Assembly: GCF_036967205.1 (NCBI RefSeq)
Contig: NZ_CP146022.1
Span: 868,001-932,000 of the forward strand
Reading direction: 5' to 3'
Source: Streptomyces sp. Q6
GTDB taxonomy: Bacteria > Actinomycetota > Actinomycetes > Streptomycetales > Streptomycetaceae
Length of the DNA: 64,000 nucleotides
Below, piece after piece: positions 62,470 through 64,000 of this stretch (position 1 is the first letter of the stretch; the number at the start of each line of letters is the position of its first letter). The position numbers and the translations under genes were made by a program. The notes under the pieces were generated by a model. It saw only the letters and a program-made list of their open reading frames with translations, did not search any database and had not been told where the DNA came from.

Positions 62470-62860
62470 ACGCGGCGGGCCCGCCGTCCGTACCCTCCGA
62501 CGAGCCCGGCATCCACCGGGCGACCACGGGGGCCGTGCGGGAGGTACGGACAGTGCGCAGAACGCTCCACTGAGACGGGTGGTACGGCTGTCGACCGCAG
62601 CCGCGCCGCCCGTCTGATCTTTTCTCACCTTTCCTCAGGTAATTCCTGAGTTCTTTTTCCTGTGCTCGGAGTGCGGCTCACGCCTGCCCGAAAACAGGTT
62701 CACGGCGGCTCGAATTCCGATTCGACAGAGGCCCCCGAATTGATTTCCGGACCACTCGGTTCCTCGTTGACAGGCCCCTTTCGCGACCCCAATGCTGGCT
62801 GCACACCAGCGATTCCGGGAATTCGCACAAGGCCAATGAACCCCGGGAGGGAGGAAAGCC
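62470..62860. other. Intergenic region before the putative peptide gene
   Basis: Immediately after malR is a nested dyad: GTCCGTACC (62486-62494) with GGTACGGAC (62543-62551), and inside it GCCCGG/CCGGGC (62504-62521), probably the malR terminator. Further on, base composition drops toward AT (about 62610-62850). A perfect -35 TTGACA lies at 62767-62772, with AATGCT 18 nt later as a weak -10, about 65 nt before the peptide start. Confidence 0.5.
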
Positions 62861-62941
62861 ATGAAGAAGATTTCCGTCCGCAAGGCGGGCCCGATCCGTC
62901 TGACCACCGCCTGCTACTACCTCTGCGGCGACGCCGCGTAA
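62861..62941 (+). CDS. 26-residue putative RiPP precursor peptide
   Basis: ATG 62861 follows GGGAGGGAGGAAAGCC, an excellent ribosome site. The product has 26 residues: a basic first half starting MKKISVRKAG, then PIRL, and the end TTACYYLCGDAA with Cys18 and Cys22 three residues apart. It has no membrane helix and is too short to be an ordinary enzyme. Eighty-one bases downstream begins a PqqD-like/M50 peptidase gene, the kind of partner found near ribosomally made, modified peptides. My inference is that MKKISVRKAGPIRL is a leader and the Cys/Tyr end the modified core. No sequence family was recognised. Confidence 0.65.
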   Translation: MKKISVRKAGPIRLTTACYYLCGDAA

Positions 62942-63022
62942 TTCCAGTCCACAGGTGGGAGCCGGGCCGCCTTCGGGGCCCGGCTCCTTCCCACCGTTCC
63001 CACCCGCGGGAGGGGGTGCCGG

Positions 63023-64000
63023 ATGACGCAGCTGACGCGGACCGTGCGTCTGCACCGGCTCACGATGGTCGACGAGGACGACGGCGTGATGGTCGGCAGG
63101 CCCGACGTCGGCTCGTACGCGGTCTTCCCCGAGGAAGGGGCGCAGGCGCTGCGGATGTTCGCCGACGGGGTGCCCGTCGACGAGGTCGGCGCCTGGTACG
63201 AGCGCACCTGCGGGGCGCCGCTCGACATGGCGGACTTCCTGGAGACCCTGGCCGACCTGGAGTTCCTGCGTACCGACGAGGAGGCCGACGCGCCGGGCAC
63301 GGTGCGCTGGCAGCGTCTGGGCCGCGCCGTGTTCTCCTGGCCGGCGTGGCTCGCGTACGCCGCGCTCGTGGCGGGCGCGGTGACGGCGATGGTGCGCGAC
63401 CCCGGCCTGCGGCCGACGTACCACCAGGTGTTCTTCACCGACTACGTGTCGCTGATCCCCGTCACGATCTTCGCGCTCGCCATCCCGTGCATCGTCGTGC
63501 ACGAGGGCTCGCACGCGCTCGCCGGGCGCCGGCTCGGCCTGCCGTCGACGCTCGGGCTCGGGCGCAGGCTCTACTACCTGGTCGCCGAGACGCGGCTCGA
63601 TTCCCTGCTGAGCGTCGAACGCAAGAAACGCTATCTTCCGTTCTGCGCGGGCATGCTGGCGGATGTCGTCCTGTTCTGCGGGCTCACCCTCCTTTCGATT
63701 CCGCTCGACGGGCACGGTATTCCGTCCTGGATTCACAAACTCTGTCTCGCTGTCGCCTTCACCTGCGTCCTGCGCCTCATCTGGCAATTCCTGTTCTATT
63801 TGGAAACGGACCTGTATTACGTGGTGACGACAGCGGCCCGTTGTACGGATCTCCAGAACGCGACCCGTTTCCGGCTGCGCTCCGGACTGCGCCGGGCACT
63901 GCGCCGCCCGCCCACCGGGGCCGACACGGAGTACTCGCCGCGCGACCGTTCCGTGGCCCGCTGGTACGCGCCGCTGCTGGTCGCCGGGTACGGGTTCTCG
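63023..64000 (+). CDS. M50-type membrane metallopeptidase with PqqD-like N-terminus (partial)
   Basis: The first 326 codons of a gene that continues beyond the window. Residues 1-85 look like a PqqD/RRE-type winged helix ('GSYAVFPEEGAQALRMFADG', 'FLETLADLEFL'). Membrane helices begin at about 105 and 142. The zinc motif His160-Glu161-x2-His164 ('VVHEGSHALAGR') lies at the end of a helix, and 'YLETDLYYVVTT' (Asp263) fits the third ligand region of M50 site-2-protease relatives used in peptide systems. RRE domains bind leader peptides, so this protein could bind and cleave the leader of the peptide encoded just upstream. ATG 63023 follows GGAGGGGG. No stop codon in the window. Confidence 0.75.
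   Translation, partial: MTQLTRTVRLHRLTMVDEDDGVMVGRPDVGSYAVFPEEGAQALRMFADGVPVDEVGAWYERTCGAPLDMADFLETLADLEFLRTDEEADAPGTVRWQRLGRAVFSWPAWLAYAALVAGAVTAMVRDPGLRPTYHQVFFTDYVSLIPVTIFALAIPCIVVHEGSHALAGRRLGLPSTLGLGRRLYYLVAETRLDSLLSVERKKRYLPFCAGMLADVVLFCGLTLLSIPLDGHGIPSWIHKLCLAVAFTCVLRLIWQFLFYLETDLYYVVTTAARCTDLQNATRFRLRSGLRRALRRPPTGADTEYSPRDRSVARWYAPLLVAGYGFS

Follow-up and report, generated by a model that had tools for sequence, protein, structure and literature searches.

The 3' end of the window, i.e., the whole stretch of 64,000 nucleotides from Streptomyces sp. Q6 analysed here (G000:C1:868001-932000, in a genome of 8.95 Mb and two contigs), holds a short peptide gene followed by the gene of a predicted membrane protease that carries an RRE, the recognition element of ribosomally synthesised and post-translationally modified peptides (RiPPs). 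As the genome is available beyond the window, the operon could be read past position 64000, and the Q6 cassette consists of four genes, which encode the precursor peptide, the RRE-site-2 protease, a tetratricopeptide repeat (TPR) protein and a flavin reductase. The cassette is real and conserved, wider than an earlier note on this DNA had guessed, and without the enzymes that the note expected. Its features in the window are:

62767..62796, plus strand: candidate promoter, TTGACA, 18-base spacer, AATGCT (conservation in close relatives)
62850..62854, plus strand: ribosome site GGAGG (direct sequence reading)
62861..62941, plus strand: precursor peptide gene MKKISVRKAGPIRLTTACYYLCGDAA, 26 codons and a stop
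62861-62905, plus strand: leader, residues 1-15, within the precursor gene, upstream of 62906
62906-62938, plus strand: core TACYYLCGDAA, within the precursor gene
62958..62987, plus strand: perfect 11-bp stem-loop in the precursor-protease gap (stem search)
63023..64000, plus strand: RRE-site-2 protease gene, first 326 of 401 codons, continuing to L011:1729
63038..63277, plus strand: RRE/PqqD-like domain, residues 6-85 (predicted fold)
63500..63514, plus strand: HExxH zinc motif HEGSH, residues 160-164 (family conservation)

The strong ribosome site and 26-codon gene reported in the earlier note are both there (GGAGG at 62850-62854 ahead of the open reading frame (ORF) at 62861-62941), and the short ORF is confirmed as a real, conserved peptide gene. 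Comparison of the Q6 ORF with its counterparts in five close relatives shows 8 variable sites, 7 of them third codon positions, and 1 amino-acid change against a mean of 13.6 under random placement (0/2000 simulations as low); this third-position bias, together with the single amino-acid change, rules out chance. The window peptide had zero family matches in Pfam and NCBIfam, while five further precursors gave a single chance match in NCBIfam, far under the cut-off, in line with the earlier note, which did not recognise the precursor from a described class.

The peptide gene is closely linked to its protease gene. A contig scan with the protease gave ten loci, seven with a CYYxC peptide upstream and three (L019, L020, L022) with the same leader type and other cores. 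Among 392 Streptomyces genomes, the single peptide matched 13, the protease profile 54 (20 above 400 bits, the other 34 with best matches of 46-235 bits) and the profile of the TPR N-domain 21 (20 above 200 bits, G343 at 49 bits), and the 20 high-scoring genomes are the same for both profiles. The peptide gene precedes that of the protease in 19 of these 20, and in G028 the protease gene is cut at a contig end. The phylum draw gave matches at 1e-20 in 4/396 genomes, Q6 included, of which one from another family (G588) carries all three genes (peptide, protease, TPR); two more score low. In the family draw, 75/395 genomes from 10 of 17 genera matched at 1e-90, at 106 places and at most four per genome; 100 places were fetched and six left out (four known from the genus draw, two low-scoring). 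Of the other partners, the TPR protein alone is present at all 100 fetched loci; the peptide was found at 99 (L136, with a broken leader frame and a still legible core after it, was scored as a miss) and the flavin reductase at 30. Thus, peptide and M50 gene co-occur as one conserved unit, as the earlier note had anticipated, and the short ORF is conserved wherever its protease subfamily occurs; the M50 gene was not found conserved beside an unconserved short ORF, nor are the next genes unrelated housekeeping genes. Two or three tandem precursor genes stand ahead of one protease gene at 5/100 loci (L162, L163, L165, L182, L189).

Residues K2, R7, G10, L14 and T15 never change among 23 distinct peptides, and the stretch past T15 varies. 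With the family draw and a plasmid cassette included, the set grows to 105 distinct peptides with 98 distinct cores behind a fixed leader (the three best leader matches per locus above 20 bits were kept, which removed a 14-bit second copy in L193; L013-L016, L035, L042 and L082, with peptides already listed, and L083, at a contig edge, contribute none). A short ribosomal precursor with a conserved leader and a variable core, one of the general marks of RiPPs, is thus present. Tyr and Cys are both found, once or more, in 97/98 distinct cores, at changing positions, where the proteome background would give about 4/98. Tyr comes first in 61 cores and Cys in 36, and Tyr often lies 4-7 residues past RLT. 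On a tree of 121 proteases built by a quick method (one core per locus; L102 and L136 left out), this order changes 7 times, with 5 changes forced by well-supported branches. In a composition-preserving permutation with one core from each of 13 clusters, one of which holds the plasmid core, 4/5000 reached the observed 13/13. Since the cores are related by descent and the Tyr placement recurs, the near-obligatory pair suggests, and does not prove, shared chemistry or ligand binding. The C-terminal core residues vary widely (A, N, C, F, G, H, V, Q and others).

The plasmid cassette L102 (linear plasmid NZ_CP109482.1 267821-282840, between transposase genes) weakens the idea that every core must hold Tyr and Cys: its core is without both residues, and its leader departs from the leader rule. 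Cys-X3-Cys was also rejected as a family rule, because CYYxC is confined to one clade; the motif that the earlier note singled out thus gives way to the leader with one or more Tyr and one or more Cys. Thioether or aryl cross-links in the core are possible, with no enzyme recognised for either.

Read past 64000, the protease has 401 amino acids (L011:524-1729). According to predicted folds, an N-terminal RRE domain and a site-2 protease are joined in one protein, which combines HExxH with a remote Asp in a membrane fold resembling those of RseP and SpoIVFB, as in M50 site-2 proteases; among 119 family members H160, E161, H164 and D263 each have a conservation of 96% or more. Pfam PqqD matches only 3/13 family members (best E 0.053), and Peptidase_M50 scores the window protein at 11.9 bits, under the cut-off of 27.2 bits. 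The PqqD label, weak by sequence, is right when judged by the predicted fold, and the earlier description of a PqqD-like domain fused to an HExxH membrane peptidase holds on fold and zinc ligands, though not on Pfam matches. A second PqqD-M50 protease group was seen in 34/392 Streptomyces genomes, the cassette peptide not being seen at 7 inspected loci; its loci include L084, L088 and L103, and the ThiF-family gene that precedes the protease gene in L084 and L088 may mark a further peptide pathway.

The TPR gene starts at L011:1726, overlapping the end of the protease gene. The N-terminus of its product is predicted to be degenerate AAA/STAND-like; a sequence comparison of this N-domain with solved structures gave zero matches up to E 1, no helix-turn-helix was seen in the protein, and its matches are generic. 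In the Q6 gene (L011:3905-3920) a stop codon present in five close relatives is missing, with one base fewer, and consequently the frame runs through the flavin reductase gene in another frame, which is either a real frameshift or an assembly error. A distant TPR relative with a P-loop-like PDGSGK stretch, at L100:7919-10207, has no adjoining peptide or M50 gene and is possibly of the ancestor type.

The flavin reductase gene (L011:3917-4471; Pfam Flavin_Reduct, E 1.1e-30) was dismissed as an essential part, being present at only 30/100 loci and at 22/31 earlier loci (of which L015 and L035 are probably one genome). It is followed on the opposite strand by a LysR regulator gene (L011:4502-5362), and upstream of the cassette there are a LacI gene and one that encodes an extracellular solute-binding protein. 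The earlier note had expected a biosynthetic cluster running past 64000; the conserved unit does continue, but among the Q6 cassette genes past 64000 there is no radical SAM, YcaO, P450, lanthipeptide synthetase or ABC exporter gene. Gene clustering at 23 loci (families in at least 3) and 100 loci (families in at least 4), with genes grouped by blastp and not individually scanned, showed no recognised modifying enzyme or exporter in the cassettes; ABC-type ATPases lie near 3/23 loci. Near the cassettes of the 100 loci (L183, L189 and others of L130-L229), an XRE-like gene recurs at 13 loci, an ImmA/IrrE-like gene at 10 and a membrane-protein gene at 9; the names are our own reading, and a 90-aa fragment of the ImmA/IrrE-like product has no Pfam match. 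A defence system was considered and rejected, as PADLOC yielded one weak, TPR-driven match.

Regarding expression, GTTGACA of the candidate promoter is conserved in the Q6 copy and the five close relatives, and not in L017 and L036; a consensus promoter scan gave zero matches. Hairpins 3' of precursor genes often keep precursor transcripts in excess. In 39/103 precursor-protease gaps a perfect stem is longer than in any of 50 mononucleotide shuffles, with differing sequences, and the folding energy of the whole gap is unremarkable in the Q6 locus (z -1.75).

The best reading of the cassette is a RiPP-type or signalling system with a leader-guided membrane protease at its centre. What we observe is its gene order, its conservation and linkage, the folds as predicted and the conservation of the zinc ligands; from these we infer four working steps. 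The precursor would be produced in excess, perhaps aided by the stem-loop behind its gene; the leader (KKIxVRKxGxVRLT) would dock on the RRE domain of the protease, whose leader binding is putative; the zinc site would cut near the leader end, around RLT, and free a core of 9-24 residues with Tyr and Cys; and the TPR superhelix may bind the precursor or the freed peptide as scaffold, maturation partner or receptor. On balance we consider it probable that the window holds the start of such a four-gene RiPP-type cassette (with the flavin reductase in its own lineage) working in this way.

What becomes of the freed core can be read in two narrower ways. It may be a peptide pheromone, exported, re-imported and read by the TPR protein on the model of the Eep-type proteases and RRNPP receptors of Firmicutes, which we regard as possible, with considerable doubt, because the TPR protein has an AAA-like N-domain, no visible helix-turn-helix and only generic matches, the RRE domain is a RiPP hallmark, and the Tyr/Cys rule and the flavin reductase would be left unexplained. 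Alternatively, the core Tyr and Cys may be joined or jointly modified by the TPR protein, by the flavin reductase where present or by an enzyme encoded elsewhere. Modification is the usual role of RRE domains, SARP genes lie nearby, and the 97/98 cores with both residues, as well as some 7 changes of their order on the protease tree (5 forced), would fit; on the other hand, no modifying enzyme is recognised, the cores share descent, the permutation with composition kept reaches the observed pattern in 4/5000 for the 13 representatives, and the plasmid core has neither residue. Only tentatively do we suggest a RiPP class not described so far and common in the family to which the window genome belongs, in which the RRE-site-2 protease and the degenerate STAND-like TPR protein yield a short peptide with obligatory Tyr and Cys, joined or jointly modified by an enzyme unrecognised as such.

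Two other explanations seem improbable. The M50 proteases TglG and TmoG of the pearlins cleave C-terminal modified residues from scaffold peptides (PMC10885120), and the peptide could likewise be a scaffold from which the protease frees a modified last residue; with C-terminal residues that differ so widely, and with no recurring residue-adding enzyme at the 100 loci by sequence clustering, such a use is very unlikely here. The short ORF might instead be regulatory, its translation controlling the protease gene directly behind it, and the stem-loops in 39/103 gaps would suit such a role. Its amino acids are, however, conserved across genera, five loci have two or three copies, and residues 1-15 are constant and compatible with an RRE leader, so we hardly credit it.

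Taken together, the results suggest that these peptides are bacterial products or signals of a family not described before. The system is minimal (one peptide, one leader-guided membrane protease and one TPR protein), and with a fixed leader and near-obligatory Tyr and Cys it is directly testable. Should the Tyr/Cys rule have a chemical basis, actinomycetes that are easily grown would offer both a novel linkage and a novel type of enzyme; should the peptide act as a signal, actinomycetes would have a TPR-based peptide signalling system. Additionally, the leader profile enables annotation of many overlooked genes of 25-40 codons.

In the openly licensed literature searched, supplements not covered, neither cassette nor leader is described, and they may stand unnamed in large RRE mining tables. 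In lasso-peptide B1/RRE systems (5v1v, 6jx3) a stand-alone RRE works with a soluble cysteine protease and a cyclase, an arrangement not found in the cassette. RRNPP systems have a TPR superhelix receptor and an M50 (Eep-type) protease next to a short peptide gene; the cassette appears to share the superhelix and the adjoining M50 protease, but its TPR protein has an AAA-like N-domain with no helix-turn-helix found, and its peptide leader is of RRE type. Epipeptide operons encode a radical SAM epimerase, which is not among the Q6 cassette genes. An M50 protease inside a RiPP operon is nevertheless shared with the epipeptides (EpeP), and a membrane M50 protease acting on a small precursor with the pearlins (TglG, TmoG), whose product is a single modified C-terminal residue made by enzymes absent here (PMC10885120). 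A word search found neither M50 nor TPR in the main text of the RRE-Finder paper (PMC7470986) or of a 2025 RRE paper (PMC12710340). The daptide leader ELExMEAP and invariant C-terminal Thr are not in the listed cassette peptides, and the Q6 cassette has no oxidative decarboxylase, aminotransferase, alcohol dehydrogenase, methyltransferase or ABC exporter as daptides do (PMC10036551). Sequence clustering of the 100 loci, not scanned gene by gene, gave no recurring family of the daptide oxidative decarboxylase, aminotransferase or methyltransferase, and NCBIfam NF041824 (daptide protease) scored the cassette protease at 8.5 bits (E 0.97, cut-off 300; own genome 0/1). The architecture itself is shared with the daptides, a class found through RRE-site-2-protease fusions, which were thus already known: in MpaP, likewise from Actinomycetota, an intramembrane site-2 protease carries an RRE at its N-terminus and is encoded beside short precursors with a conserved N-terminal motif (PMC10036551).
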